DNA of 64,000 nt from Frankia sp. AiPa1 (GTDB lineage Bacteria > Actinomycetota > Actinomycetes > Frankiales > Frankiaceae): the NCBI RefSeq assembly GCF_023243075.1, contig NZ_JALKFZ020000125.1, forward strand, positions 1 through 64,000, written 5' to 3'. The translations under genes were made by a program, and so were the position numbers. Positions 1 through 49,211 of this stretch are shown here, piece after piece. Numbering within the stretch: the first letter of the stretch is position 1; each line of letters opens with the position of its first letter. Below the pieces are notes generated by a model. The model saw nothing but the letters and a program-made list of their open reading frames with translations. It ran no database searches and was not told the DNA's origin.

Positions 1-12499
<12,499 letters not shown>

Positions 12500-12582: not shown

Positions 12583-14226
12583 TCAGCCGAAACGGCGGCG
12601 CAGCTCGCGTTTATCGATCTTGCCGATGGCGGTGAGGGGCAGCTCGTCCACCACGGTGAGCAGGTCGGGGAGCATGAACCGGGCCAGGCCCCGCTCCCGC
12701 AGGTAGGTCTTGACGTTCTTCAGCTTGATCGACTCTCCGGCGCCCAGCACCACCACGGCCCGCACGCTCTCGCCGAGCTGTTCGTCGGCGGCCGCGATGA
12801 CGGCGGCCTGCACGATCGCCCGATGGGCGAGCAGATGCTCCTCGAGCTCCGTGGCGGAGACGTTCTCCCCGCTCCGGTTGATCACGTCCTTGATCCGCCC
12901 TTCGACGACGAGGTTGCCCTCGGCGGTGCGCCGGACCAGGTCACCGGTGCGGTAGTAGCCGTCGGGGGTGAACGCGGTCGCGTTGTGCTCGGCGGCGCGG
13001 TAGTAGCCGCGGATGGTGTACGGCCCGCGGGTCCACAGTTCGCCGGTGGCCCCGGCCGGGACGTCGAGTCCGTCCTCGTCGACGACGCGGATCTCGTCGG
13101 CGGCGGCCAGCGGCCGGCCCTGCGAGGTGCAGGCGAGCTCGTCGCCGTCGTCCAGGCGGGTGTAGTTGAGCAGGCCCTCGGCCATCCCGAACACCTGCTG
13201 GACGGCGGCGCCCAGCACCGGGCGGATCTGGCGGGCCAGCGCCTCGTCCAGCTTCGCCCCACCCACCTGCAGCAGGCGCAGGCTGGTGGTGTCCGGACCC
13301 TCCCAGCCGGCGGCGGTCACCCAGATCCGGGCAAGTGCCGGGACGAGGGCCGTCACCGTCACCCGTTCGCGGGCGATCAGCTCGAAGGCGATCTCCGGGC
13401 TCGGCGCACAGGCCAGCACCACCGTCGCCCCGACGCCGAACGCGCCGAGCAGCCCCGGGCAGGCCAGCGGGAAATTGTGGGCCGCGGGCAACGCCACCAG
13501 GTAGACATCGCTGCCGCTCAGCCCACACAGCCGGGCGCTCGCCGCCGCGTTGTACGCATAGTCCCAGTGGGTACGCGCGATGAGCTTGGGCTTGCCGGTC
13601 GTCCCCCCCGAGATGAGCAGCACCGCGACCCCGGCCGGGTCGACCGGCTCGGGACTGGTCACGGGCCGCCCGCCCCGCGCGGCGGCCCCGGCCGCGGCCA
13701 GCCCGGCCAGCCCGGTGAACGCGGTTGACGCCCCGGCATCGCCGGCGACCAGCACGTGCCGGATGGACGGGACGGCCGCCACGATCTCCCCGGCGAGCAC
13801 CCGGTGGTCGAAGCCCTCGTGCCGGTCCGGGATCGCGTACGCCACGGCGCCGGAGAGCCGGGCCAGATGCTCGATCTCGACCCGGCGGTGCGCGGGCAGT
13901 GTCAGGACCGGGATCGCGCCGAGGCGCAGCAGCGCGAACAGCAGCGTCACGAACTCGATCCGGTTCGGCAGATGCAGGACGACCCGGTCGCCCGCGCCGA
14001 GTCCAAGCCCGGCCAGACCGGCGGCCAGGTCGTCGACGGCCTCGTCGAGCTCGGCGTAGCTGCGCCGCACGGGCGCCCCGGGCGGCCCGCCGACGAGCGC
14101 GGTGGCCGCGCCGTACCGCTGCGCCCAGTCCCGCAGCCGGTCCGCCAGCGGCCCGCCTTCCCAGTACCCGGCCTCGCGGTAGCGATCGGCGAACTCCGCC
14201 GGCCAGGGAACGAATCCCTCGCCCAT
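12583..14226 (-). CDS. Salicylate-AMP ligase (stand-alone aryl adenylation enzyme)
   Basis: This 547-residue stand-alone adenylation enzyme of the EntE/DhbE/MbtA/PchD family should activate an aryl acid with ATP and load it on the ArCP of the NRPS encoded just upstream. Visible motifs are SGGTTGKPK near the middle, the TGD-type loop (YRTGDL) and the C-terminal GKIDKREL lysine motif. The substrate pocket reads HNFPLACPG. In this family Asn followed five residues later by Cys is the salicylate pattern, whereas 2,3-dihydroxybenzoate enzymes carry Ser there. That fits the salicylate synthase next door and the absence of entA/entB-like genes. Its ATG overlaps the previous stop by one base (TGATG), implying translational coupling. 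Confidence 0.93.
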
Positions 14227-17200
14227 CAGACGTCTCCCAGCCGGGACTCGATCTCGTCGTCGGACATCCCGGCGATCTCCCAGGCGATCGACGCGACCCG
14301 GTCGAGCCGGCCCGGCATACGCTCGGCCGCGCGCATGGCGTCGGCGAGCCCGGCCACCGTCGGCGTCCCGAACAGCATCCGCACCGAGACGTCCGTCGTG
14401 TCGAGCTCGTCACGCAGGCGGGTGACAACCGAGGTGGCCAGCACCGAGTCCCCACCCACGGTGAAGAACTCGTCGGTCACCCCGCATTCGGCACCCAGCA
14501 CGTCCCGCCAGACCAGCAGGATCATCCGTTCCAGGTCGCTGCCCGGCGGTGTCGTCGGGCGCGTCCCGTCCCGCTCCCGGCCCAGCAGCGCGGCCACCGC
14601 GGCCCGGTCGATCTTCCCGTTGACGCTCAGTGGCAGCGCGGGCACGACGACGACCCGGTCCGGCACCATGTGGGGCGGCAGCAGACCGCGCAGCCGCTCC
14701 CGCGACGTCACCGCGGCGGCCTCCTCGGCGATGGCGTCCGCATCCGGGTCGAGGACGACCGCGGCGCCGAGCGTCACCGCCGGCCCGCCGCCGGTCAGCG
14801 TGGCGACGGCCCCGTTCACCCCCGGCAGGCCGCGCAGCGCGTGCTCGACCTCGCCGAGCTCCACCCGGAAACCGCGGATCTTGACCTGATGGTCGCGGCG
14901 GCCGAGGAACTCCACCGTCCCGTCAGGCAGGTAGCGGGCCAGATCCCCGGTGCGGTACCAACGGGAACCGTCCTGGGTGACGAACCGGTCGGCGGTCCGC
15001 TCGGGATCGCCGCGATAGCCGAGCGCGACACCGTCCCCGCCGATCCACAGCTCGCCGGTGACCTGGTCGGGACAGTCCCGGCCCCGCGGGTCGACGACCC
15101 GTAGCCGCACGTTGCGCAGCGGCGTCCCGTAAGGGATCGCACTCCAGCCGGCCGGCACCGGAGCGCCGCCGACGACCTCGCACACCGTGGAGTGGATGGC
15201 CGTCTCGGTCGTCCCGCCCAGGCCCAGGAAGCGGCAGCCCGGCGAGGCCTGCGCGAGCCGCCCCGGCAGGTCGACGCCGATCCGGTCCCCGCCCAGCAGC
15301 ACCGCCCGCAGGCTGGTGAGGCTGCCCGCCGCCGCCGACGATGCCGTCGTCAGGAGCAGGTCGAGGACGGCGGGAACGCAGTTGAGGAGGGTGACGCCGT
15401 GCGCGGCGACCAGCTCCACCCAGCCGGTGGCCTCCCGCCGGGAGGCCTCGTCGACGAGCACGACCGCGCCGCCCACGGACAGCGGCGCGAAGAGGTCGAA
15501 CACGGACAGGTCGAAGTCGAGCGCGGAGACGGCCAGCGTCCGGTCACCCGGACCGATTCCCAGCCGTTCGACCAGGTCATCGAGGGTGTTCATCGCCGCC
15601 CGGTGCGACACCTCGACCCCCTTGGGCTCACCGGTGGACCCGGAGGTGAACAGCACGTAGGCCGGCGCGTCCAGCCGATCCGGGTCATCCGCGGCGGCCA
15701 GCACCGACCCACCACCAGACCCGACCGGCCCAGTGAGCTCGGTCAGGGTCTGCTCGGTCAGGGTCTGGGTGAACCCGGCCGTGCCCGCGATCCGGGCGAC
15801 CCGCGCCGGCGGCTGGTCGATCCCGACCGGCACGTAGGTGGCACCCGCCGCCAGCACGCCGAGAACCGCGACGACCTGCTCCGGCCCCTTGGGCAGGCTG
15901 ACGCCCACCAGGTCACCCGGCCGCGTCCCCCGGGCGGCCAACGCCCCGGCCACCTCCCGGGCCCGCGCCGCGAGCTGTCCGTAGGTCAGCGTCCCGGTCC
16001 GCCCGGCCGCCGCATCCGCCGTCCACAGCAACGCCGGGGCGTCAGGTTCGCGGGCGGCTCGGGCGAAGAATCCCTCGTGCAGCAACCGCGTCGACCGCGG
16101 GCCCGCGACATCCCCGACCCGGTCCCGCACCGCCCGCGTCGCGTCGTCGAGCAGCGCGTCAACCGGCCGGTCCCAGCGATCAAGGTGTTCCGCGGAACCG
16201 GCGAGTTCGCGGACGAGCCGCTCGAAGGCAGCGAACATCGCGTCGACGACGCCGGGGGCGAAGGCGCCCTCGCGGACGTCCCAGTTGAGCAGCAGACCGC
16301 CGTCCAACTCGGTGACCTGCGCGTCGAGCAGGACCTGCGGCCCCTGCGAAATGATCCACTCCGGCCGGCCGAACGCCTCTCGCACTGCCGGATCGAACAG
16401 TTCACCGAGCCCGAGGGCGCTGGTGAACACGACCGGAGCGAGCATTCGCTCGCCGCGGGCGCGGCCGGCGTCGCGCAGCACCTCCACGCCGGAGTAGGCG
16501 GCGTGAGCGGCGTCGGCGTGCAGCCGGGACTGAATCCGACGGGCCCGCTCGACGAACGGAACCGCTCCGGTGAGATCGACCTCGAGCAGCACCGAACTGG
16601 TGAAGTCACCCACCACCCGGTCGATGTCCAGATGCACCTGCTCACGATCGAACAGCGGTACGTTCAGCGCGAACCGTTCCTGGGCGCTCCAGGCGCCGAT
16701 CACCTCGGCGAACGCGGTCGCCACCGCCACCGCCGGGGTGACCCCATGCCGGTGCGCCGAGCGGCCGAGCTCCTCGCGGGCCTCGCGCGGCAGCCGGACG
16801 TGCCGGCGGGTCACCCGGGTCGAGGTCTCGTGGGTCGAGGTCTCGTGGGTCGAGGTCTCGCCACCGGAGGCGAGCGGCAGCTCGGGCGCCCCGGGCAGGC
16901 TCGGCAACCGGTCGTGCCAGGCCTGCCGGGACCGCTCGGCCGCCGCCCGCCGGGCCGCCGCCCGTTCGGCCCGGTACTGCCGGTAGGTGTAGGCCGGCGC
17001 CGGCGCGAGCGCGCCGTCCGGCTGGGCGTACAGCTGCGCGAGATCGGCCAGCAGGACGCGGTAGCTCACCGCGTCGGCGGCGACCATGTCGACGTCGAGA
17101 TGGAACCGGGTCGCCCCGCCGGGCAGCAGGCTCAGGGCGGTGGAGAACACCTCGCCACGCTCGATGTCGAGCATCTGATGGGACAGCGCGTCCCGCACCT

Positions 17201-19097
17201 CGCCGAGCCGGGCCTGGACCGTGGCCTGGTCGAACCCCCGCAGGTCATGGATGGTCAGCCCGCGCCAGCCCGACGACGCCTCGACGCGCTGGGAGCCGTT
17301 GTCGGTGATCCTGGTCCGCAGCGCCTCGTGCCGGGCCACGAGCTGCCCGAGCGCCGTGGCGAGCCGGTCCGGGTGAATGTTCCGGCCATCGAATTCGGTG
17401 TGGTCGAATTCGGTGTACAGGTGGGCGGCGACCCCGCCCAGCGGCTGCCCGCGGTCCCGGCCCACCCAGTAGGCGTGCTGCATGAGGGCGAGCGGGAACT
17501 CCGCGGGTGCCGGCTGGACCGCCGGGCCGGGCGCCGGGCCGACTGCCGGCCGGGCGAGGATCTTGGCCCAGCCATCGAGGGTCGGGTTCTCCGCCAGCTC
17601 GCCGAACGTGACCTCGAGGCCGTCGCGGCGCCAGGCGCCGACCGTCTGGATCAGGGCGATCGACTCCAGGCCCAGCTCGAACAGGTTGTCCTCGTCGCCG
17701 ACGTTGGCGGGATCCTCCTCGATCAGCTCGGCGACCTGGCGCCGCAGCGCCTCTCGGTCCAGCCCCGGCGCGGCGACCAGAAAGCGGCTGACGCTGCGTA
17801 GCTTCTCCCGCGTCTCCTCGAGTTCACGCTCCGGACTGGACGCACCGACGATGCCGGCACCGGCCCGCAGCCAGGTGCGTCCGTCGCGCTGGAACGCCGA
17901 GCGCAGCACGAGGGCCGCGTCGAGCGAACCGTCCGCGTCGACGCTGAGTACCGCGCCGCTGTACACCCCGCGCGGCGCCGCCTCGTACCGGCGGATCGCG
18001 GCGAGCGCGTCGGCCTTCGGGATGCCGGTGGCGGTGATGGACGGGAAGACGGCCCCCAGCGCGTCCCAGCAGTCATGGCCGGACGCGAGGCGCCCACTGA
18101 CCCGGGAGGCCAGATGTTGCACGCTGCCGCGATCGAGCACGGACATGAACTCGTCAACGACCAGGGATCCCGGCCGGCACAGCGGGCGCAGCTCCTCCTG
18201 CGCGGCCTGTACCGACACGGCGTGCTCGTAGATCTCCTTCGGGTCGGTGAGCAGCGCCGCCCGGCGGGCCTGGTCGGCGGCGCCGCCGTCGCGGGCGGTG
18301 GTTCCGGCCAGCGGCTGGGTGGAGACCCGGCCGTCCGCGGCGACCTCGACAACGGTCTCGGGGCTGAAGCCGGCCAGACGCAGATCGCCGAGATCCAGTA
18401 GGAACGAGCGGGCCGGTGTGTTGCCGCGCCGCCCCCGCTCGTAGGTGGCGGCCAGGTCGATCGACGCGTCCACCGGGACCAGCCGAGACATGATCACCTT
18501 GCGAAACCGGCCGGCCTGGATGTCGGCGACGACCCGGGCGACGTTCGCCAGGTAGTCGTCACCGCCGTGCTCCAGGTCCGCGGCAGCGACCTCGGTGACG
18601 GCAGCGACCTCGGTGACGGCAGCGAGCTCGGTGACAGCAGCGAGCTGCCGGGCCAGCGCGTCGAGCTCGGCGGGGTCGAGCGCACGCAGCAGCGCCCCGG
18701 ACGCCGTCAGCCGCACCTCACGGGCCGGAATGACCAGGTGCACCAGCGGCTCGCCGGACACGGGGCCGGGCAGTCCGGCAAGCCTGGGCCCCAGTTCGAA
18801 GGCAGCCACGCCGTATGCCCGCCAGCCGGCGATCGGCAGCCACGCCAGCACCCGGGCCAGCGCCCGCAGCGGGTCCCCACCCACCGGCTCGCCCCGCCAG
18901 GCCCCGCCGCCGCGGTAGCGGATCTCGTCCCAGTACGCGACGATCTCCCCCGCCGCACCCGTGCCGACGCTCCACTCGCCGTCGCGCTCGTAGACGGTGA
19001 ACGGTGCCTCGGCGGCGCGCGCCAGGCCCACCGCGGTGGCGAGCGGGTCAAGGCCGAGCGTGAGGGCGCGCTCGTGGTAGGCCCGCGGCGCGCTCAT
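14226..19097 (-). CDS. Salicylate synthase fused to NRPS loading module (SalS-ArCP-Cy-A-PCP)
   Basis: This 1623-residue fusion makes salicylate and builds the first part of the siderophore. Residues 1 to about 440 match MbtI/Irp9-type salicylate synthases ([41 protein letters not shown]). An aryl carrier domain follows (LGLESI near 472), then a heterocyclisation domain at about 530-950 with the diagnostic DxxxxD (DMVAAD near 670). An adenylation domain at about 1010-1500 carries hand-read code DLFNLGLIH, between the Cys-type siderophore code and the Thr code. A carrier domain follows ([10 protein letters not shown] near 1549). The start is the ATG at 19097, which overlaps the MbtH stop as ATGA; a longer reading would cover the MbtH gene. 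Synthase and MbtB-like NRPS are normally separate proteins. The residue cyclised (Ser, Thr or Cys) is uncertain; Ser/Thr giving an oxazoline is favoured. Confidence 0.95.
16176..16199. repeat. 24-bp sequence shared, inverted, with 37198-37221
   Basis: These 24 bases inside the NRPS gene are the exact reverse complement of 37198-37221, downstream of recR. Both copies contain the 12-bp palindrome GTTCCGCGGAAC, which also occurs at 31841-31858 and 60137-60152. Confidence 0.8.
16817..16860. repeat. 15-bp tandem repeat, three copies, in Cy domain region
   Basis: Three near-complete 15-bp units (16817-16831, 16832-16846, 16847-16860) encode repeated THETS pentapeptides in a surface loop of the heterocyclisation domain. 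The reading frame is preserved. Confidence 0.9.
18582..18650. repeat. 18-bp tandem repeat in the salicylate synthase domain
   Basis: About three and a half copies of an 18-bp unit encode AAVTEV-like hexapeptides. They sit between the N-terminal part and the conserved core of the salicylate synthase domain, probably a tolerated loop. Confidence 0.88.
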
Positions 19098-19354
19098 CGG
19101 GACGCGCCGGAACCCGCGCCGTCGGGCTGCCGGGCAGCGTCCTGCTCTGCCATCCGGGCGACGAGGCTGGCCGGACGCAGATCTGTCCAGTGGGTCTCGA
19201 CGTAGTCGAGGCAGGACGCCCGGTCGGCCGCTCCGTGCACGATCCGCCAGCCCGCCGGAACCGGAACGAACGTCGGCCACAGCGAGTGCTGCTCCTCGAC
19301 GTTCACAAGGACATAGAAGCTGCCGTTCTCGTCATCGAACGGGTTCGTCGACAT
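19094..19354 (-). CDS. MbtH-like protein
   Basis: This 86-residue protein is a typical MbtH-like partner that binds and stabilises NRPS adenylation domains. It begins [18 protein letters not shown] and has the three conserved Trp contexts ([22 protein letters not shown]). It is the first gene of the biosynthetic operon, directly behind an iron box, and its TGA overlaps the ATG of the salicylate synthase/NRPS fusion (ATGA). A GAGGAG lies about 11 bases upstream of the ATG. Confidence 0.97.
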
Positions 19355-19490: not shown

Positions 19491-21173
19491 CTAACTCAGA
19501 CGGCCGGCTTCTACCCGGACAGTGCGCGGAAGGCGCTCGATTGTTGTCGGACGGTGTGCGATGACAAGCAGTGTGCGTCCGGGCCGCAGGCGTTCCACGG
19601 CGTCCTCGAGGCGCCGCGCCGCCTGCGGGTCGAGGTCGGCGGTCGCCTCGTCGAGCACCAGCACCGGTGGATCCACCAACGCCGCCCGCAACAGACCGAC
19701 GATCTGCCGCTCCCCGGCGGACAGCCGGGAGCCACGGGCCCCGAGGTCGGCGTCGAGCCCGCCGTCGAGCCCGTCGACCCAGTCGGACAGGCCCAGCTGC
19801 TCGACGGCTCGTTCCATCGCCGCCCGGTCCGGCGCGCCCGGGGTGAGCGCGAGGTTCTCGGCCAGCGTGCCGGTGATCAGATGCACCTGCTGCGGGATGA
19901 GCACGATGCGCTCGCGCACCTGCGCCGGGTGCACGCCGCGCAGGTCCACCCCGCCGAAGCGGACCGCGCCGGCGTCCGGTTCGTAGAGCCCGGTGAGCAG
20001 CTTGGCCAGCGTCGTCTTGCCGGATCCGGTGACGCCGATCAGACCGGCCCGGTCGCCTTCCGCGAAGGCGACCGAGACGTCCCGCACGATGTCGGCGCCG
20101 TCGTAGGCGAACCGCAGCCCGTCGGCGACCAGATCCCCGCGCGCCGGCAGGCCGCCGGTGCGGTCGGGTGGGCGCGGCTCGACCGGGGGCAGCGTGGCCA
20201 GCAGGTCGACCAGACGGGCGAGGCCGACCCGGGCGACCTGGGCCTCCCCGGCGATCCCGGACAGCGTCAGCAGGTTCTCGAACAGGTTGCGGGTGGCGAG
20301 GACGAACACGACGACCGCGCCGACCCCGAGATGATCTCCCCGCACGAGCCAGACGCCGAGCAGCAGCAGCGCCGCCGTGGCCAGGCCCTCGAGCGCGCTG
20401 AACAGCTCCAGGCGGCTCTGCACGTCGATGGCCCGCGTGTTCGCCGCGTGCAGCTCGTCGTTGTCCCGGCGGAAGCGGCGCACCCACTCGTCCGGGCGTC
20501 CCGGCGCGACCAGCGCCTCGTGCGCGGTGAGGGTCTCGGTGAAGGTCGCGGTCATCGCCGCGTCCGCGGCGGCCTGCCGGCCGAACGCCCCGCCCGCACC
20601 CCGGTTGAACCAGGCCAGCACGCCGATGGCGAGCGGCAGGAACAGCGCGATGAGCAGCAGTGTGAGCAGCCACGAGTACACCAGCAGCAGGCCGGTCGTC
20701 AGGAAGACGGTGAGAGTGACGCCGACCAGGTTCGGCAGCTGGTCGCGCAGGAACAGGGTCAGGTCGGCGATCTCGCCGGTGGAGCGGCGCAGCAGGTCAC
20801 CGGTGCGGTGCGCCTCGATGAAGCGCAGCGGCGCGGCGGCGAGCCGTTCGACGACGAGATCCCGCAGGCCACGGATGGTCCGCTCGCCGGCCTGCGACAT
20901 GAGGACCTCGGACTGGCGCAGCATCAGCATCCGCGCCACGACCACGGCCACGAGGACGGCGACCGCCCACCACAGCCGGGACCGGTCGTGCTCGGTCACC
21001 GCGTCCACACCCCAGCCGATCACCGGCGCGATCGCCACCACCGCGGCGGTGCTCGCGAGACTGGCCAGCAGCGCACCGAACACGATCGCCCGGTGCGGGC
21101 GCAGGTACGGCCAGAAGCGCCGGAACACGCCTTTCGTCGTCGGCTCCTCGGCCAACGTGCGGGTCTCAGCCAC
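19491..21173 (-). CDS. ABC half-transporter, TMD-NBD (IrtB-like)
   Basis: This 560-residue half-transporter has an N-terminal six-helix membrane domain (about 1-310) and a C-terminal ATPase (about 340-560). The ATPase shows Walker A GVTGSGKTT, signature LSAGERQ and Walker B VLVLDEATADLD. It starts at GTG 21173 and overlaps the end of its partner half-transporter by 8 bases, so the two probably form a heterodimer. Such pairs beside actinobacterial siderophore genes resemble mycobacterial IrtAB (siderophore uptake) or siderophore exporters. The sequence alone does not decide the direction of transport. It is the last gene of the operon. Confidence 0.92.
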   Translation of the reverse strand: MAETRTLAEEPTTKGVFRRFWPYLRPHRAIVFGALLASLASTAAVVAIAPVIGWGVDAVTEHDRSRLWWAVAVLVAVVVARMLMLRQSEVLMSQAGERTIRGLRDLVVERLAAAPLRFIEAHRTGDLLRRSTGEIADLTLFLRDQLPNLVGVTLTVFLTTGLLLVYSWLLTLLLIALFLPLAIGVLAWFNRGAGGAFGRQAAADAAMTATFTETLTAHEALVAPGRPDEWVRRFRRDNDELHAANTRAIDVQSRLELFSALEGLATAALLLLGVWLVRGDHLGVGAVVVFVLATRNLFENLLTLSGIAGEAQVARVGLARLVDLLATLPPVEPRPPDRTGGLPARGDLVADGLRFAYDGADIVRDVSVAFAEGDRAGLIGVTGSGKTTLAKLLTGLYEPDAGAVRFGGVDLRGVHPAQVRERIVLIPQQVHLITGTLAENLALTPGAPDRAAMERAVEQLGLSDWVDGLDGGLDADLGARGSRLSAGERQIVGLLRAALVDPPVLVLDEATADLDPQAARRLEDAVERLRPGRTLLVIAHRPTTIERLPRTVRVEAGRLS

Positions 21174-22827
21174 GGCTGCCTCCGGTCTGCGCGCCGACGA
21201 CGTCCAGGTACAGCACCCGGTCGGCGGCGGCCAGCACCGACGGGCGGTGCGAGATGACGACCAGCGCGGTCCGCGGCGCCCAAGCCCGCAGCCGGGCGAG
21301 GATCGTGGCCTCGGTCGCCGCGTCCACCGCGGCGGTGACGTCGTCGAGGATCAGCACGTCGGGCCGGCCGAGCAGCCCCCGGGCCAGCGCCAGTCGCTGG
21401 CCCTGACCGCCGGAGACGGTCGCGCCGCGCTCGCCGAGCGAGGTGTCGTAACCGTCGGGCAGGTTCGAGACGAAGTCGTCGACCGCGGCGACCTCGGCGG
21501 CGGCGCGCAGCGCCCCGAGATCGAACTCCCGGCCGACGCGCAGGTTGTCCGCCACGGTGCCGGCGAGAATGAGCGGGCGCTGCGGCACCAGACCGATCCG
21601 GCTGGACAGCTCCACCCGGGCGACGCGGCGCAGATCCACCCCGCCGAGGCTGACCGTGCCGGCCTGCGGGTCCTCCAGCCGGCACAGCAGGCGGGCAAGC
21701 GTCGTCTTGCCGCTGCCGGTCGGCCCGGTCACCGCGACGAACTCCCCGGCGGCGACGCGCAGGTCGACCGGCCCGAGCACCGGGCGGCCGTCGTGCACGG
21801 CGGTGATGCCCCGCGCGACCAGCTCACCGCCCGGCGGCGGAACCTCGGCGTCGGCCGGATCGTCGGCGCTGACCGGCGTGTCGAGGATCTCGGCGATCCG
21901 GGTGGCGGCGACCCGGGCCTGTCCGCGCGAGGCCAGCAGGTCCACCGCGATCGTGACGGCCAGCGTCAGCGTGGTCATCCAGGACGTGAACGCGACCAGA
22001 CCACCGATGGTGAGATCGCCGTGCAGGGCGGCGGTGCCGCCGATGGCGAGGCCCGCCGCGATCGCCAGGCGCGGCACCGCCGGTGGGATCGCCGTCCACG
22101 ACGCCGAGATGCGCGCGGCGGCCATCGTGTGCCCGGTCTGCGCCGCGCTGCGTTCGTGATGGCGACGCACGAGCTCCGCCTCGCCGCCGATACCGCGCAC
22201 CGCGGCGCTCGCCGTCAGCAGGTCGTCGACGGCGTCGGCCCGGGCGCCGAACGCCTCCGAGAGCTGGTCGTTGGCCACGTCGAACCGGCCGGGGAAGAAG
22301 GCGTTGGCAAGCGCCACCAGCGGGATCGTCACGACCCCGACCACCAGCAGCAGCGGGTCGAGCAGGGCGAAGGCAGGCAGCACCACGACGATCGTCACCG
22401 CGATGCGGATCCAGATCGACAGGCTCTGCACCCACAGCCGGACCAGGTCGACGTCGCGGGTGGCGCGCATCGCCAGGTCACCGTGACCGTAGCGGGCGAG
22501 CGCCGGTCGGTCGAAGGCGGCGACCCGCTCGACGATCGAGGCCCGCAGCCCGTGGGCGACCCGGGCCGCGGCCCGGCCCGACCAGCGCAGACCCGCCATC
22601 CCACCGAGGCTGAACGCGACGGCGACCAACGCCGCGGGGATTGCCCACCGCACCGTCTCGTCCACCGAACCCGGGGTGATCCCCCGGTCCAGGGCCCGCT
22701 GGATGCACCAGGGCAGCGCGAGCATCGCGACCTGCTGGACGATCGTGGCCAGCGCGCCGAACGTCAGCTCGCGCCGCCGCGGGCGCAGCCGCTCCCGCAG
22801 CAGCCGTCTGCCCGTCGAGCTGTTCAC
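21166..22827 (-). CDS. ABC half-transporter, TMD-NBD (IrtA-like partner)
   Basis: This 553-residue TMD-NBD half-transporter has membrane helices in residues 1-300 and an ATPase from about 330, with Walker A GPTGSGKTT, signature VSGGQGQR and Walker B VLILDDVTAAVD. The Asp-Asp in Walker B replaces the usual Asp-Glu, so this ATP site may be degenerate, as in one half of many heterodimeric ABC proteins. The partner keeps Asp-Glu. The start is GTG at 22827, overlapping the previous stop as GTGA. No N-terminal siderophore-interaction domain like that of IrtA is present. Confidence 0.9.
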   Translation of the reverse strand: MNSSTGRRLLRERLRPRRRELTFGALATIVQQVAMLALPWCIQRALDRGITPGSVDETVRWAIPAALVAVAFSLGGMAGLRWSGRAAARVAHGLRASIVERVAAFDRPALARYGHGDLAMRATRDVDLVRLWVQSLSIWIRIAVTIVVVLPAFALLDPLLLVVGVVTIPLVALANAFFPGRFDVANDQLSEAFGARADAVDDLLTASAAVRGIGGEAELVRRHHERSAAQTGHTMAAARISASWTAIPPAVPRLAIAAGLAIGGTAALHGDLTIGGLVAFTSWMTTLTLAVTIAVDLLASRGQARVAATRIAEILDTPVSADDPADAEVPPPGGELVARGITAVHDGRPVLGPVDLRVAAGEFVAVTGPTGSGKTTLARLLCRLEDPQAGTVSLGGVDLRRVARVELSSRIGLVPQRPLILAGTVADNLRVGREFDLGALRAAAEVAAVDDFVSNLPDGYDTSLGERGATVSGGQGQRLALARGLLGRPDVLILDDVTAAVDAATEATILARLRAWAPRTALVVISHRPSVLAAADRVLYLDVVGAQTGGSRG

Positions 22828-23633
22828 AGCGACGCCGGGGCCGGGGCCGGGGCCTGCGAGCGCAGCGGGATGACCAGCGGTGTGCCGGATTCCGGGTCGG
22901 TGATGACCCGGCAGGCCAGACCGAAGACCTCGCGCACCAGCTCGGCGGTGACGATCTCGTTCGGCGGCCCCTGGGCGATGATCCGCCCGTCGCGCATCGC
23001 CACGAGGTGCCCCGCGTACCGGCTGGCCTGGTTGAGGTCGTGCAGCACCGCCACCAGCGTGTGCCCGCCGTCCGCCAGCAGTCCGGCGCACAGGTCGAGC
23101 ACCTCGATCTGGTGGGCGATGTCGAGGAAGGTCGTCGGCTCGTCCAGCAGCAGGATCGGGGTCTGCTGGGCGAGCACCATGGCCAGCCACACCCGCTGAC
23201 GCTGCCCGCCGGACAGCTCGTCGACCGGACGATCGACGAGCTCGGTGAGGTGGGTGCGCTCCATCACCTCGGCGACGACCTGCTCGTCCTGGCGGGACCA
23301 CTGGCGCAGCAGCCGCTGGTGCGGGTAGCGGCCGCGGGCGACCAGATCCGCCACGGTGATCCCGGCGGGCGCGGTCGCCGACTGGGCGAGCAGCCCCAGC
23401 CGGCGCGCGACCTCCTTCGTCGGATAGGACGAGATCAGCTCCCCGTCGAGGTGGACGGCGCCGGCCTTCGGCCGCAGCAACCGGACCAGCGCGCGCAACA
23501 GCGTCGACTTGCCACAGGCGTTCGGCCCGACGATGACGGTGAACGCCCCGTCCGGGATCTCGATGCCGAGTCCGCTGGCCACGACCCGCCGGTCGTACGC
23601 CAGAGTGAGATCATGCGCGCTCAGCCGCGTCAT
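22824..23633 (-). CDS. Fe(III)-siderophore ABC importer ATPase (FepC-like)
   Basis: This ATPase of 269 residues belongs to the FepC/FecE family and powers uptake of ferric siderophores through the two FecCD permeases encoded just upstream. It shows Walker A GPNACGKST, signature LSGGQRQR, Walker B ILLLDEPTTFLD and the switch His (LHDLNQ). The start is the ATG at 23633; the reading frame stays open further upstream only as an overlap with the permease gene. No substrate-binding lipoprotein gene lies in the window. Confidence 0.95.
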   Translation of the reverse strand: MTRLSAHDLTLAYDRRVVASGLGIEIPDGAFTVIVGPNACGKSTLLRALVRLLRPKAGAVHLDGELISSYPTKEVARRLGLLAQSATAPAGITVADLVARGRYPHQRLLRQWSRQDEQVVAEVMERTHLTELVDRPVDELSGGQRQRVWLAMVLAQQTPILLLDEPTTFLDIAHQIEVLDLCAGLLADGGHTLVAVLHDLNQASRYAGHLVAMRDGRIIAQGPPNEIVTAELVREVFGLACRVITDPESGTPLVIPLRSQAPAPAPASL

Positions 23634-23649: not shown

Positions 23650-24651
23650 TCATCCCTGCCGCTGCTGCCGGACGAGCAGAATCGCGAGGTAGAGCCCGCC
23701 GACGACGGCGGTTGCCACTCCCACCGGCAGTTGGGTCGGCGCGAACACCCGCTGCGCCGCGAAATCGCTGACGGCGACCAGGGTGGCGCCGGCGAACGCG
23801 GTGGCGACCAGCGGCGGTGCCGACGCCCGGCACAGCCAGCGGGCCAACGGTGGCGCGGTGAGCGCGACGAACCCGATCGGCCCCGCGGCGGCGGTCGCGA
23901 CGGCCGCCAGCGCCGCACCGACGGCGATGAGCGCGGCCCGGCTGCGACCGACACCCACCCCGAGCGCCTGCGCGGTGTCGTCGCCGAGCTCCAGATAGGC
24001 CAGGCGCCGCCCCAGCCACAGGGCCAGCGGAATCAGGATGGCCAGCGCGATCGCGAGCGGCCGGACCTGGGCCCAGCCCCGGCTGTTCAGGCTGCCGATC
24101 AGCCAGACCTGCGCGGCGACCGCGTCCGCGAGGTCCGTTCGGGTGATCAGATAGGAGTTGACGGACGACAACAGCGCGCCCATCGCGATCCCGATCAGCA
24201 CCAGACGCGGCCCGGCCACCCCACGCTTGTAGGCAAGCGTGTAGACCGCCATGCCGGTCAGCACGCCGCCGACGACCGCGCCGAGCGTCGCCTGCCCCGC
24301 GCTGCCATGCAGCACCAGCAGGACGATGATCGCCCCGGTGGCGGAGCCGAACGTGAAGCCGAGCAGGTCCGGGCTGCCCAGCAGGTTTCCCGACACACTC
24401 TGGAAGATCGCTCCGGACAGCGCGAGCCCCGCCCCGACCAGCAGGCCGGTCAGCAGCCGCGGCAGGCGCAGCGAGTTGATGACGAAGTCGTTGCCGCCGC
24501 TGCCCTGACCGAACAGGGTGCGCAGCACGTCGGAGACCGGGATCTGGTAGTCGCCGGTGGTCAGCGCGGCCACGCCGACCGCCACGACCGCCACCGCGAA
24601 CCCGGCGCTGACGAGAATCGCCCGCGGCGAGACGCGCCCGGGGGCCGTCAC
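23650..24651 (-). CDS. FecCD-family siderophore permease (second subunit)
   Basis: This integral membrane permease of 333 residues is hydrophobic along most of its length. FecCD-family features include LRLPRLLTGLLVGAGLALSG near the N-terminus and AAAGPIGFVALTAPPLAR near residue 240. It should pair with the permease at 24648-25754 and the ATPase at 22824-23633. The GTG at 24651 overlaps the previous stop as GTGA and is preferred over an in-frame start nine codons upstream. Confidence 0.94.
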   Translation of the reverse strand: MTAPGRVSPRAILVSAGFAVAVVAVGVAALTTGDYQIPVSDVLRTLFGQGSGGNDFVINSLRLPRLLTGLLVGAGLALSGAIFQSVSGNLLGSPDLLGFTFGSATGAIIVLLVLHGSAGQATLGAVVGGVLTGMAVYTLAYKRGVAGPRLVLIGIAMGALLSSVNSYLITRTDLADAVAAQVWLIGSLNSRGWAQVRPLAIALAILIPLALWLGRRLAYLELGDDTAQALGVGVGRSRAALIAVGAALAAVATAAAGPIGFVALTAPPLARWLCRASAPPLVATAFAGATLVAVSDFAAQRVFAPTQLPVGVATAVVGGLYLAILLVRQQRQG

Positions 24652-25754
24652 GCGTGGGCCAGCCGGGCACGTCGGCACAGGGCGATGAACACCGGCGCCC
24701 CGACCACGGCCGTGACCACCCCGACCCGCAGCTCACCCGGAGCGATGATCAGCCGGCCGATGAGATCCGAGCCGATCAGCAGAATCGCGGCGAGCACCGC
24801 CGAGTAGGGCAGGACCCAGCGCTGGTCCGTCCCCGCGATCGCCCGGGCGGCGTGCGGGACGGCGAGGCCGACGAAGGTGATCGGCCCGGCGGCGGCGGTG
24901 GCCGCGCCGCACAGCAACACGACCGCGAGGGCGCCGAGCGCCCGCGCCCGGTTCAGGTGGACGCCAAGCCCCCGGGCGGCCTGCTCGCCGAGGGCCAACG
25001 CGTTCAGGGACCGGGCCTGACTGAGCGCCAGCAGCAGGCCGACGACGATGAAGGGCCAGGTCGCCGACAGGGTGGGGGCGCCCGGCGCGGCCAGCGAGCC
25101 GACGTCCCAGAACCGGTACCGGTCGAACGCGGTGGGGTCCAGGATCAGGATCGCGTTGACGAACGCGCCGAGCAGCGCCACCGCGGCAGCGCCGGCGACC
25201 ACGAGGTTCGCGGGTGTGTCCGCGCCGCGCCCGGCCGTGCCGATCAGGAAGACGGCGACGGAGGTGAGCGCCGCCCCGCCGAACGCGAACCAGACGTAGC
25301 CGGCGGTGCTCGTCACCCCGAACACCGCGATGCCCAGGGCGACCGCCGCGGAGGAGCCCATGCTGATGCCGAGCAGCCCCGGCTCCGCCAGGTCGTTGCG
25401 CGTCAGTGCCTGGGTGACCGCGCCGGACACCCCCAGGGCCGCGCCGACCACGAGCGCGAGCAGCGTCCGCGGGATCCGCAGGTCGTGCACGACCAGGGCC
25501 GCGGTGGACCCGTCGTTGTGCCGCAGCACCCGCCAGACCGTGCCGAACGGCACGTGGTTGGCCCCCGCCCACAGACTCAGCAGGCACATCGCGGCCAGCA
25601 CCGCGACGGCGGCGGCGAGACCCGCCGCACGCGGCGACGCACCGTGGCGTCGCACACCGTGGGTTCGCACGCCGTGGGTTCGCACATCAGGGGGTCGCGC
25701 CTCGGGGACGGCCGGGACTGTCCCGGTTGGTCCGTCCCGCGTAGGAGCTCGCAC
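24648..25754 (-). CDS. FecCD-family siderophore permease (first subunit)
   Basis: This 368-residue FecCD-family permease is the first gene of the transport operon. Family blocks include LRIPRTLLALVVGAALGVSG and AAAGPITFVGLAVPHAAR. The soluble N-terminus (about 40 residues) contains a short repeat of RTHGV encoded by a 15-bp tandem duplication, so a slightly later start is possible. The first usable codon is GTG at 25754. A weak iron box lies 24 bases upstream. Confidence 0.93.
   Translation of the reverse strand: MRAPTRDGPTGTVPAVPEARPPDVRTHGVRTHGVRRHGASPRAAGLAAAVAVLAAMCLLSLWAGANHVPFGTVWRVLRHNDGSTAALVVHDLRIPRTLLALVVGAALGVSGAVTQALTRNDLAEPGLLGISMGSSAAVALGIAVFGVTSTAGYVWFAFGGAALTSVAVFLIGTAGRGADTPANLVVAGAAAVALLGAFVNAILILDPTAFDRYRFWDVGSLAAPGAPTLSATWPFIVVGLLLALSQARSLNALALGEQAARGLGVHLNRARALGALAVVLLCGAATAAAGPITFVGLAVPHAARAIAGTDQRWVLPYSAVLAAILLIGSDLIGRLIIAPGELRVGVVTAVVGAPVFIALCRRARLAHA
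25651..25689. repeat. 15-bp tandem repeat in permease 5' end
   Basis: Two exact-frame 15-bp copies (25651-25665, 25666-25680, one change) and the start of a third encode the RTHGV repeat at the N-terminus of the FecCD permease. A degenerate copy lies just before at 25638. Confidence 0.8.
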
Positions 25755-25947: not shown

Positions 25948-25969
25948 GCAAATGACCGGAGGATCGGCT

Positions 25970-27304
25970 GTGGCAAGCATCGGCATCCAGGACATCGTCG
26001 GAGTCGGCTTCGGCCCCTCGAACCTGGCTCTGGCGATCGCCGTCGAGGAACACAACGCACAGGTTCCCGCGCGGGATGCCCTGCGGGTGTCGTTCCTTGA
26101 GCGGCAGGCGAATTTCGGCTGGCACCGCGGCATGCTGCTCGAGGGCGCGACCATGCAGGTCTCCTATCTCAAGGACCTGGTGACCCTGCGAAACCCGGCC
26201 AGCGGCTTCAGTTTCCTGTCGTTCCTGCACGAGCAGGAGCGCCTGGTCGACTTCATCAACCACAAGACGCAGTTCCCGTTGCGCCAGGAGTTCCACGACT
26301 ATCTGGCGTGGGCCGCCCGCCGCCTCGATCATCTGGTGGACTACGACCTGCGGGTGGTCGACCTGCGGCCGGTTCTCGCCGACGGCGAGATCGCCCTGGT
26401 CGACGTGGTCGCGGTGCGTGGCGACACCGGCGAGACCGTCATCCGCCGCGCCCGCAACGTCGTGCTCGCCGTGGGGCTCGAGCCGAAGCTGCCCGCGGGC
26501 ATCAACCTCGGTGAACGGGTGTGGCACAACAACGATCTGCTGGCGAGGGTGGCCAGTCTCCCGCCGGCGACCCGTGACCGGTTCGTCGTCGTCGGCGCCG
26601 GCCAGAGTGCGGCCGAGGTCACCGAGTTCCTGCATACCCGCTATCCCACGGCGCAGGTCGTCGCCCTCTTCGCCCGGTACGGATACAGCCCGGCTGACAA
26701 CAGTGCGTTCGCCAACCAGATCTTCGACCCGTCCGCCGTCGACGACTTCTACACCGCCCCGCCCGCCGTGAAGGACATGCTCGGCGCCTACCACCGCAGC
26801 ACCAACTACTCGGTGGTCGACATCGACCTGATCGACGAGCTGTACCGCCGGGTCTACCAGGAAAAGGTGCACGGCCAGGAACGCCTGCGGATGATGCGTG
26901 CCTCGCGTCTGCTCGATCTACGCACCCTGGCCGACGGTGTCTGCCTCGACGTGGAGTTCCTGCCCACCGGCACGCGGGAGACCATCGAGTCAGACATTGT
27001 GGTGTTCGCCACCGGCTACCGTTCCCGCGACCCGCGCCTGCTGCTGGGCGCCATGGCCGAGCACTGCGAGACCGACCCCGCCGATCCGTCCGATCCGCAT
27101 GGTCCGGCCGGCCGCCCCCGCATCGGCCGCGACTACCGGTTGCACACCGGCTCCGGCACCAGCGCCGGGGTGTACGTGCTCGGCGCCACCGAGCACTCGC
27201 ACGGCATCTCCTCGACCCTGCTGTCCAACGTCGCGGTCCGTGCCGGCGAGCTCATACAGTCGATCACCAGGCCCGCCTCCGGTCTTCTTGTCGGCCGAAG
27301 GTGA
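25970..27304 (+). CDS. L-ornithine N5-monooxygenase (SidA/PvdA family)
   Basis: This flavin monooxygenase of 444 residues should hydroxylate the side-chain nitrogen of ornithine with NADPH and O2, giving the hydroxamate building block. It has an N-terminal FAD motif (GVGFGPSNLALA), the family block MQVSYLKDLVTLRNP, an NADPH-binding motif (VVVGAGQSAAEV) and the late ATGYRSRDP motif. The GTG at 25970 is preferred over the in-frame ATG at 25952, because CGGAGGA lies 6 bases before it and the earlier ATG has no ribosome site and abuts the iron box. Its product suits the third NRPS adenylation domain, whose code is hydroxyornithine-like. No formyl- or acetyltransferase for hydroxyornithine is seen. 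Confidence 0.95.
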   Translation: MASIGIQDIVGVGFGPSNLALAIAVEEHNAQVPARDALRVSFLERQANFGWHRGMLLEGATMQVSYLKDLVTLRNPASGFSFLSFLHEQERLVDFINHKTQFPLRQEFHDYLAWAARRLDHLVDYDLRVVDLRPVLADGEIALVDVVAVRGDTGETVIRRARNVVLAVGLEPKLPAGINLGERVWHNNDLLARVASLPPATRDRFVVVGAGQSAAEVTEFLHTRYPTAQVVALFARYGYSPADNSAFANQIFDPSAVDDFYTAPPAVKDMLGAYHRSTNYSVVDIDLIDELYRRVYQEKVHGQERLRMMRASRLLDLRTLADGVCLDVEFLPTGTRETIESDIVVFATGYRSRDPRLLLGAMAEHCETDPADPSDPHGPAGRPRIGRDYRLHTGSGTSAGVYVLGATEHSHGISSTLLSNVAVRAGELIQSITRPASGLLVGRR

Positions 27305-46426: not shown

Positions 46427-47419
46427 TCACTCGACCGGTTCAGGCCGAGTGAACAGGCGATACAGGACAATCATTGGTGGCAGGACGATCGCCAGACCAC
46501 CGGCGACGGCGTAGAGCATCGCGTGGATGTTCGTCGACGGCGCCGCGGCGTCGTCGACGGTGACCTGCCCGACGATCAGGTCCGGGTACTGGGCGATCGC
46601 CCAGCCCCAGAGCATCCCGCCGACGGCGAGTCCGGCAGCGATCCGGGCCGCGACGAACTGGTTCCGGCCAAGGGCCACCAGCGCGGCGACCCCGCCGCAC
46701 GCCGACAGCGCGACCAGCGGCACCGACCGGTCACCGAACCGGTGGGCGACCACCGGCGCCTCGTGCGCGAACAGCGGCAGCAGGATCAGCGCGAGCACCC
46801 CGCAGACGACCGCGCCGCCGAACGCCCGGCGGCGGAACACCGGCACCAGATGTGCCGAGACCGGGGAGGCGCTTGCGTCCTTGCACAGGTACACGGCGGC
46901 GAGGAACGCGGTCGCGGCCACGGCGAACAGGCCGCAGCCCAGCCCGAAGACGCTGCGCAGCGGTGCCATCGGGTCGGAGGCCGACATCTTCCCCGTGGCC
47001 AGCGCCGCGCCGGTCACGCCCAGCGCGAACGGAGTGATCGTCGAGGAGACCGCGAAGACATGCCCCCACCAGTGGTCGGGACCCGCCGCGCCCGCGCCGT
47101 ACGCGCGGTAGACGTAGGCGGCGCCGCGCAGCACGATGCCGACCAGCGCGGCCGCGAGCGGGATCTCCAGCGACGAACCGACCACGCCGTAGGCCGGGGG
47201 AAAGCCGCTGAACAGCGCGACGACGATGAAGACCAGCCAGACGTGGTTGGCCTCCCACACCGGCCCGATCGAGTGGGAGATCAGCCGGCGCTGCGACCGG
47301 GCGTCCGGGCCACGGGCCAGCAGATCCCAGACGCCGCCGCCGAAGTCGGCACCGCCGAGCAGCGCATAGGCGGTCAGCCCGATCACCATGACGACGAGGA
47401 GCAGGTCGGCGGACGTCAT
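46427..47419 (-). CDS. cydB: Cytochrome bd oxidase subunit II
   Basis: This 330-residue CydB is very hydrophobic, with about nine membrane segments. Its N-terminal block GGADFGGGVWDLLARGP and WEANHVWLVFIVVALFSGFP are diagnostic. With CydA it forms the bd-type quinol oxidase, which has high oxygen affinity and resists cyanide and NO. The ATG overlaps the cydA stop (ATGA). The cydDC assembly genes are not in the window. Confidence 0.95.
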   Translation of the reverse strand: MTSADLLLVVMVIGLTAYALLGGADFGGGVWDLLARGPDARSQRRLISHSIGPVWEANHVWLVFIVVALFSGFPPAYGVVGSSLEIPLAAALVGIVLRGAAYVYRAYGAGAAGPDHWWGHVFAVSSTITPFALGVTGAALATGKMSASDPMAPLRSVFGLGCGLFAVAATAFLAAVYLCKDASASPVSAHLVPVFRRRAFGGAVVCGVLALILLPLFAHEAPVVAHRFGDRSVPLVALSACGGVAALVALGRNQFVAARIAAGLAVGGMLWGWAIAQYPDLIVGQVTVDDAAAPSTNIHAMLYAVAGGLAIVLPPMIVLYRLFTRPEPVE

Positions 47420-49158
47420 CGGGACTCTCCGTCAGTCGAGCGGCCGGAGGCCGCGTGGCGTCCGGCCGGTCGGCCGAACAAACGGAGTCCGGTGTGGTGG
47501 GCCTCATGCCGCGGGCGTGGGATGGCCGACGTCCTCGCCGGCTGGTCCTTCCCGCCGGACCCGCCGGACCCGCCGGACGCACTCGGCCTGGCGGTGGGAG
47601 CGGGCGCACCGGCAGGGGTGAGGGCGTACCGGGCGGCGTGTTCGGCAGCGGGGTCGTACTCGGCAGCGGGAGCGGACTCCTTGGAGCCGCGGCGCCCGTC
47701 GTCCTCGCCACCCTTGCCGGTGCCTTCGCCGCCGTCGCGATCCGGACGTCCGGAGCCACCCTGGCCGCCGTCGCGCGGGCGCGGGGCGCTGGGTGTCGTC
47801 GGCCCGCCGGAGCGGCCCGGTACCAGCTGCTCGCCACTGGCGCCGCCGCTGGCCATCCGGCGCAGGATCAGGATGAGGGCACCGGCCAAGCCAAGGTAGA
47901 GCGTCAAGGTACCGGCAAAGATCGGAGCCGCACCGTTGCTGCCCGTGACGGCGTCGGCGACCTTCATCCGGCCGCCGACGATCCACGGCTGCCGGCCGCC
48001 CTCGGTGACCTCCCAGCCGGTAAGCATGGCGAGCATCGCTGCCGGGCCGGTACAGGCCGCGGCCAGCAGCCAGAGCCGGCCGGTCGGCAGCAGCGGTGTC
48101 TCCGCCCGGCGCCGGCGCCGTAGGACGGCGGTCCCGGTCGCCAGCGACAGCATGATCAGCGCCGAACCGGCAACAATCATCACCGTGAACGCGCCGTGCA
48201 CGAGTGCGCCATCGGGCCGCTTGTCGGGCGGGGCGGAGTCAAGGCCCGTGACGACGTGATTCGTACTGAAGCCCTCGATCAGCGAGAGCATCCCCGGAAT
48301 CTCCAGGCCGTGGCGGACCTCGCCGGTCTTGTCGTCGTAGATCCCACCGATCGTGAACGGGGCGTTCGACCCGGTGTGGTAGAGCCCTTCCATCGCGGCG
48401 AGCTTGAGCGGCTGGTGGTCGGCGGCGTTGCGGCCGGCCCAGTCACCGGCGATGAGCTGCAGTGGGGCGGCGACCAGCACCGCCGTGAGCCCGATGGCAA
48501 GGCCGTGACGGTGGTATGCGTCCCGGCGCCCGCGCAGCATGCCGACCGCGTAGATCGCAGCGACCATCCCACCGGCGCACATGAACGCGGCGAGCAGCAT
48601 GTGGACGAGCTGCGGACCGAACGACGGGCTGGTGAACGGGGCGAACGGTTTCTCGGCGATGACGTGGCCGTTCCGCTCGGTGATGCCCCGCGGGGTGTTC
48701 ATCCAGGCGTTGACCGTGATGATGAACAGCGTCGACATCGTCCCGGAGATCGCGATCGGCCACAACGTCAGCCAGTGCGCGCGGGCCGAGAGACGTTTCC
48801 AGCCGTACAGGTACATCCCGACGAAGATCGCCTCCGTGAAGAACGCGAATCCCTCCATGGTGAACGACAGCCCGAGGGCACCGCCGTACTTGGACATGAA
48901 AGCGGGCCACAGCAGCCCGAACTCGAACGACAACACTGTTCCCGAGACGGCGCCCACCGCGAAGAGCACGGCGAAAGCACGGGACCACTTCTTCGTCAAT
49001 GCCAGCCATACCGGATCGCCGGTACGCAGCCAGCGCCACTCGGTGTAGAGCAGCATCCAGGGCAGGCCGACACCGAACACGGCGAAGCAGATGTGGAACG
49101 CGAGGGAGAACGCCGTCTGGGCACGAGCAAGGTCGATGGCGTCGGCGGCGAGAACCAT
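47416..49158 (-). CDS. cydA: Cytochrome bd oxidase subunit I with long disordered tail
   Basis: This CydA of about 580 residues oxidises quinol and reduces O2. Heme and quinone features include AFHICFAVFG (heme His near residue 22), a short Q-loop and EGGRQPWIVGG. After about residue 435 comes a tail of some 145 residues rich in Gly, Ser, Pro and charge, with no membrane segment; this is much longer than usual. ATG 49158 is preferred over GTG 49164, because AAGGAG then lies 8 bases upstream. It is first in the cydAB operon, behind an inverted repeat matching one before blaI. Confidence 0.94.
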   Translation of the reverse strand: MVLAADAIDLARAQTAFSLAFHICFAVFGVGLPWMLLYTEWRWLRTGDPVWLALTKKWSRAFAVLFAVGAVSGTVLSFEFGLLWPAFMSKYGGALGLSFTMEGFAFFTEAIFVGMYLYGWKRLSARAHWLTLWPIAISGTMSTLFIITVNAWMNTPRGITERNGHVIAEKPFAPFTSPSFGPQLVHMLLAAFMCAGGMVAAIYAVGMLRGRRDAYHRHGLAIGLTAVLVAAPLQLIAGDWAGRNAADHQPLKLAAMEGLYHTGSNAPFTIGGIYDDKTGEVRHGLEIPGMLSLIEGFSTNHVVTGLDSAPPDKRPDGALVHGAFTVMIVAGSALIMLSLATGTAVLRRRRRAETPLLPTGRLWLLAAACTGPAAMLAMLTGWEVTEGGRQPWIVGGRMKVADAVTGSNGAAPIFAGTLTLYLGLAGALILILRRMASGGASGEQLVPGRSGGPTTPSAPRPRDGGQGGSGRPDRDGGEGTGKGGEDDGRRGSKESAPAAEYDPAAEHAARYALTPAGAPAPTARPSASGGSGGSGGKDQPARTSAIPRPRHEAHHTGLRLFGRPAGRHAASGRSTDGESR

Positions 49159-49211
49159 GCGCACGGCTCCTTCGAAGGACCGCGGGGAGAAATCGACCGG
49201 GAATCAGCCGA

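Follow-up and report, generated by a model that had tools for sequence, protein, structure and literature searches.

A 64,000-nucleotide stretch of DNA from Frankia sp. AiPa1, a member of a genus of plant-root symbionts (contig NZ_JALKFZ020000125.1, positions 1 to 64,000, forward strand; referred to below as the window), carries a single minus-strand gene at 14226-19097 in which a salicylate synthase domain is joined in one open frame to an aryl carrier protein (ArCP), a Cy-type condensation domain (Cy), an adenylation domain (A) and a peptidyl carrier protein (PCP). We consider it very likely that the product of this gene is the five-domain starter protein of a nonribosomal peptide synthetase (NRPS) system for a salicyl-capped, hydroxamate-containing metallophore, that it was fused from adjacent genes, and that the fusion acts as a tether rather than through channelling. 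In the mycobactin, yersiniabactin and pyochelin systems, the salicylate synthase is a separate protein, and in all the systems compared here salicylate supply and loading either reside on separate proteins or the synthase is joined to the ligase. The Frankia fusion is real, conserved and usual within its own family, and it is useful for asking why consecutive steps fuse.

Domain organisation and integrity of the fused protein

The minus-strand open frame extends over 14226-19280 and begins with GTG. The ATG at 19097 is very probably the true start of the gene, because the stop of the MbtH-like gene overlaps it (ATGA); translation from this codon to the TGA at 14228-14226 gives a protein of 1623 amino acids. 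The sequence-only reading, an earlier examination of the window made without database searches, had assigned these same coordinates to one polypeptide carrying all five domains, and both the boundaries and the domain assignment proved to be correct. A plus-strand gene over 14226-19097 was considered and rejected, as the first frame holds stops. Other plus-strand open frames overlap the gene, for example at 15192-17801 (869 amino acids), which is expected opposite GC-rich coding DNA.

Pfam searches with the protein detected a chorismate-binding enzyme domain (residues 180-432), a Condensation domain (573-966), an AMP-binding domain (1010-1361) and two PP-binding stretches, and the gene overlaps its neighbours at both ends. 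The synthase domain, recognised by TIGR03494 and by alignment with MbtI, covers residues 1-445 (17763-19097, minus strand, like the other four domains), and the ArCP covers residues 449-528 (17514-17753), with the phosphopantetheine-bearing serine, S479, in the sequence LGLES. The condensation domain lies at residues 536-990 (16128-17492) and contains DMVAADAVS, a sequence that fits DxxxxDxxS, which we take to be the Cy motif. It is followed by the A domain at residues 1006-1510 (14568-16082), where the ten-residue code DLFNLGLIHK was read at anchor positions that we presume to be the appropriate ones, and by the PCP at residues 1516-1600 (14298-14552). The ArCP, Cy, A and PCP domains are present in the order expected of a salicyl-initiating NRPS module. 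This content and order, like the intact aligned residues, the overlapping neighbours, the conservation and the unfused counterparts described below, are direct observations.

The sequence-only reading had named an inactive synthase domain as something that would count against it, and we found no sign of inactivity in the sequence. Residues 22-442 matched the TIGR03494 salicylate synthase model with 440.1 bits, above the cut-off of 325.15. The closest solved structures were MbtI (2g5f, E = 2.9e-87) and Irp9 (2fn0, E = 7.4e-83), and salicylate synthetases outscored TrpE and EntC. The MbtI residues K205, E252, T271, E294, E297, H334, Y385, R405, E431, E434 and K438, for which we assume catalytic and Mg-binding roles, correspond to K200, E247, T266, E288, E291, H328, Y379, R399, E425, E428 and K432 of the fused protein, and all eleven are invariant across 22 aligned synthases. 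In the host genome (6.98 Mb, 88.5% complete), no locus other than the fused gene scores above the TIGR03494 cut-off.

The linker between synthase and ArCP is 9 residues long in the window, which is the shortest among 26 rows (20 distinct loci) recovered with a pattern that missed L010, L018, L022 and L029; the longest has 53 residues, and the linker is often rich in Ala and Pro. Because the length ranges so widely, the linker sequences suggest a plain tether more than a fixed channel.

Distribution and origin of the fusion

In a sample of 35 Frankiaceae genomes, 23 had a synthase over the TIGR03494 cut-off, at 26 loci, and at 20 of these loci, G032:C75 among them, a single frame encodes synthase, ArCP and Cy (those of G001 and G007 being cut or partial). 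The G028 locus is cut by the contig end within the linker. In G003 (L161:610-5683), the synthase and ArCP lie in one frame and Cy-A-PCP in another that overlaps it, a frame change that may be natural or may reflect a sequencing slip. Four loci were judged to be stand-alone: those of G029 and G009 and, in each of G005 and G022, a second locus (G005:C1:5042664 and G022:C169:68002) taken as unfused on open-frame length only (674 and 481 amino acids).

A sample of the class comprised 393 genomes, 55 of them over the cut-off, with 33 loci in 32 genomes outside Frankiaceae. No full-length fused frame was found among these 33 loci, the longest frame being 1153 amino acids; the sample was judged by frame length, which leaves room for shorter fusions of synthase and carrier. 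Another family of the same class (f17; 297 genomes, 49 with loci, 52 loci) yielded one full fusion, in G470; frame length was the basis for the other loci, G576 being inspected as well. The long frames of G217 (1153 amino acids) and G576 (1165 amino acids) were rejected as fusions and counted as unfused, since the synthase ends the frame and ten domain queries gave no other match; those of G265, G307 and G475 (831, 802 and 931 amino acids), too short for the full protein, were counted by length. Among 14 control genomes, the TIGR03494 searches of the Frankiaceae and class samples gave matches in E. coli and Thermotoga maritima, one of them over the cut-off, and the controls of the f17 search gave the E. 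coli match alone, over the cut-off.

Among named genomes, where the best 80 of at least 539 relatives were examined, 9 of the 80 loci have synthase, ArCP and Cy in the same frame. Five of the nine are in Frankiaceae (L039, which is F. torreyi CpI1, and L040, L042, L044 and L099), and the others are in Kineosporia (L041), Actinokineospora (L047), Actinosynnema (L048) and Pseudonocardia (L049); a further locus, L043, runs off its contig and is cut in the linker. Seven loci seem to be common to the named and family samples, so the counts overlap. Two other arrangements were seen. At 12 of the best 80 named loci, all from proteobacteria, ligase and then synthase share one frame, with the ArCP-Cy module outside it. 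In Streptomyces niveiscabiei (L095:9001-10515), a synthase and a carrier domain (Pfam PP-binding, 31.7 bits against a cut-off of 20.8) form a didomain, with no Cy, A or PCP in the frame. The fusion is thus usual within Frankiaceae and rarer in the other samples taken. The sequence-only reading had set the architecture against the separate synthases of the mycobactin, yersiniabactin and pyochelin systems, with the proviso that finding it to be common would undo the claim; it is unusual beside these three and the other systems compared, and it was not common in the two other samples, but inside Frankiaceae it is the common form.

Three relatives, Streptomyces inusitatus (L045), Pseudonocardia lacus (L087) and Actinokineospora diospyrosa (L112), encode the synthase and the ArCP-Cy protein in two neighbouring genes, with four-base stop/start overlaps of ATGA, ATGA and GTGA, respectively. 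As in the window, the ligase comes next in L045 and L112; the stretch examined for L087 yielded no ligase. Because these three relatives keep both genes separate with overlapping stop and start, the fusion probably arose through loss of the boundary between two overlapping genes; one small shift at such an overlap would produce the fused frame.

Synthase-domain trees were computed on 95 rows (after eight duplicates and the partial L026 and L029 had been dropped) and on a subset of 46 rows (all 23 fused rows plus 23 chosen from the 72 others), the fused label taking in L043 and the frame-changed L010 of G003. Two fused groups were supported, one of 19 rows from Frankiaceae and Kineosporia, the other of four fused rows that enclose the unfused L112. 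A single clade of all 23 fused rows alone was rejected by the approximately unbiased test (p-AU 0.003), and a fused clade plus L112, a group defined after the tree had been seen, was not (p-AU 0.22). The fusion may have had a single origin with a later split, or two origins. The fused synthase of L099 (Frankia gtarii) groups with Pseudonocardiaceae rows and not with other Frankiaceae, which points to transfer between families.

A six-domain version was found in a Frankia metagenome-assembled genome (MAG), where one open frame at L044:3646-10231 encodes synthase-ArCP-Cy-A-PCP-ligase, at least 2195 amino acids reaching the contig end; its ligase domain is 66% identical to the window ligase. The frame lies on a single MAG contig, 10,232 bases long, so that the PCP-ligase join may be an assembly error. 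If the frame is real, the chain holds every step from chorismate to the carrier-bound ring. One could then envisage Frankiaceae as part-way toward a single-chain aryl-azoline synthetase, with ArCP-Cy-A-PCP joined first and the ligase next, and with real transfer of intermediates between domains, but we regard this as doubtful. The fused starter, the unfused relatives with the same gene order and the six-domain form make a matched set for measuring the benefit of fusion, with stoichiometry, proximity and channelling as the benefits to compare.

Proposed starter function and alternative explanations

The sequence-only reading had also held that a stand-alone ligase must act beside the fused protein, and the ligase is indeed a separate protein of 547 amino acids, encoded at 12583-14226 on the minus strand; its ATG and the fused-gene stop share one base (TGATG). 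The top solved match was PDB 5wm2, "Salicylate-AMP ligase" (624 bits), and the score against TIGR02275, a model for 2,3-dihydroxybenzoate ligases, was 601 bits, below its cut-off of 723.55. By similarity, we predict that this ligase is the salicyl-AMP partner of the fused module.

We infer every enzymatic step, the product and any advantage of the fusion from these comparisons. The MbtI-type N-terminal domain would convert chorismate to salicylate, which would be released, adenylated by the coupled, separate ligase and loaded onto the nearby ArCP. The Cy domain would then couple salicylate to the PCP-bound amino acid, Cys, Ser or Thr, and cyclise the product to a hydroxyphenyl-oxazoline or -thiazoline, and the cyclised intermediate would be handed to the large downstream NRPS. 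The starter itself would have been formed when a synthase gene and an adjacent, overlapping ArCP-Cy-A-PCP gene merged. Rather than channelling salicylate in the strict sense, the fusion would most likely hold synthase and module at a fixed 1:1 stoichiometry and keep the salicylate concentration high locally. In this Frankia metallophore cluster, the chelating cap would be tied to one gene, open to deletion or expression.

Several observations weigh against the proposed starter function. The code DLFNLGLIHK of the A domain fits no textbook code, and Cys, Ser and Thr are not separated by it. An AlphaFold model of the synthase and ArCP, built from a nine-row alignment, had a mean pLDDT of 60.7 and a pTM of 0.35 and was uninformative on domain contacts. 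In G003, a single-contig genome, ArCP and Cy lie in different frames, and 12 of the 35 Frankiaceae genomes had no TIGR03494 match. In addition, G005 and G022 carry a second synthase locus, judged to be unfused, beside the fused one; therefore, some genomes have a source other than the fused domain.

The alternative that deserves most weight is that the fusion is a neutral operon accident, in which the boundary between translationally coupled genes was lost and function was unchanged. This is quite possible, although we do not favor it. The overlapping but separate genes of L045, L087 and L112 agree with it, as does the position of the unfused L112 inside a clade of fused forms, from which it follows that fused and split states may interconvert; however, the fusion has been kept at 20 of the 26 Frankiaceae loci, with synthase and ArCP both conserved. 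Channelling, which the sequence-only reading had proposed, seems unlikely; here salicylate would be passed on inside an assembly of the fused protein with the ligase, apart from the cell pool. The L044 frame, which includes the ligase and so places all steps on one chain, and the 12 proteobacterial loci in which a ligase is joined to the synthase at its opposite end would argue for such channelling, and if proximity is beneficial, recurrent fusion of consecutive steps would be expected. In contrast, a linker that ranges from 9 to 53 residues is unlike a fixed channel, the AlphaFold model gives no domain contacts, and the ligase has a frame of its own both in the window and at seven of the nine named fused loci (L042 ends before the ligase and L044 is the fused case).

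The remaining two explanations concern whether the protein is what it appears to be. That the N-terminal domain is inactive, or produces isochorismate or anthranilate, could be argued from the homology of these enzymes, as TrpE and EntC structures also match, with lower scores; it is very improbable given a score above the curated salicylate-synthase cut-off, intact residues, MbtI, Irp9 and other salicylate synthetases as the top solved matches, and an adjacent ligase that is nearest to a solved salicylate-AMP ligase. A false join of two genes, through an error of sequencing or assembly, might be suspected in a GC-rich draft of 198 contigs, and the sequence-only reading had raised this itself, yet the same layout is present in many independently sequenced genomes, including the single-contig G005, G017 and G024. 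A frame shared at 20 of 26 Frankiaceae loci is therefore neither chance nor an assembly join, and we consider such an error in the window so improbable as to be excluded for practical purposes.

Known systems and neighbouring genes

MbtI and Irp9 (YbtS) have the family and the aligned catalytic residues in common with the fused domain, but they are separate proteins, with solved chains of about 430-470 amino acids, whereas the Frankia domain opens an NRPS. The nearest parallel is PxbJ of Xenorhabdus (photoxenobactin/piscibactin), described in PMC9396620 as a bifunctional salicylate synthase/adenylation protein. PxbJ is like the Frankia protein in that a salicylate synthase is joined to another initiation enzyme, but its partner is a salicylate-specific A domain, the ligase, whereas the Frankia partner is ArCP-Cy-A-PCP and the window ligase has its own gene at 12583-14226. 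The madurastatin starter proteins Mad31, Mad60 and Mad63 provide synthase, ligase and carrier/Cy functions for a hydroxyphenyl-oxazoline and are described as three separate proteins (PMC10951976; PMC10779116), unlike the Frankia fusion; hydroxamates and an N-methylating module are further points in which madurastatin resembles the predicted window system (same sources). Kineochelin, amychelin and gobichelin have a salicyl-oxazoline starter with a Cy domain, a kind that the window may encode, but the kineochelin synthase KinL, for which the homologue AmcL is cited, is described as stand-alone (PMC13238742). The salicylate synthases of sorangibactin, lusichelin and fatuamide are likewise described as separate.

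Frankobactin, from Frankia sp. CH37, is likewise a Frankia metallophore and has a hydroxyphenyl-oxazoline core and five amino acids. Its cluster was termed "bipartite" by the original paper, according to PMC12701797, and the portion available of the CH37 genome announcement (PMC7729416) mentions metallophore clusters and describes no starter gene. No description of a synthase fused to an ArCP-Cy module was found in the literature searched, which consisted mostly of titles and abstract starts, with thin coverage of subscription journals; the original frankobactin paper may well already show the fusion. A synthase-ligase fusion, PxbJ, is already published, and the fusion of synthase with an ArCP-Cy module is a further variant made of standard parts.

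Beyond the ligase gene lies a large NRPS gene (2-12499, minus strand), truncated by the contig end, for which Pfam and domain queries gave at least C-A-T / C-A-T-E / C-A-MT-T; the second T domain was seen in two relatives, L161 and L166, and the number of Pfam PP-binding stretches in the window protein, three, agrees with it. The codes of the second and third A domains, DFWNIGMVHK and DMENMGLI, which we take to be Thr and N-hydroxyornithine codes, suggest these two residues as the predicted substrates. The long NRPS of G003 and G011 has at least about 6540 residues and more modules, and is still open at the end of the stretch examined. Upstream of the fused gene, the MbtH-like protein (19094-19354, minus strand, 86 amino acids, Pfam MbtH 97 bits) is preceded on the same strand by two ABC transporter halves, each with membrane and ATPase parts (19491-21173 and 21166-23301), and by two FecCD-type permeases of the siderophore-transporter kind (23650-24678 and 24648-25754). 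An L-lysine/L-ornithine N-monooxygenase gene (25952-27304, plus strand; Pfam Lys_Orn_oxgnase, E = 2e-106) would serve the hydroxamate arm. From this gene content, the cluster looks like the mixed phenolate/hydroxamate metallophore type and is possibly frankobactin-like. Elsewhere in the window, adjoining genes for cytochrome bd oxidase subunits I and II, an ordinary arrangement, occupy 46427-49164 on the minus strand.

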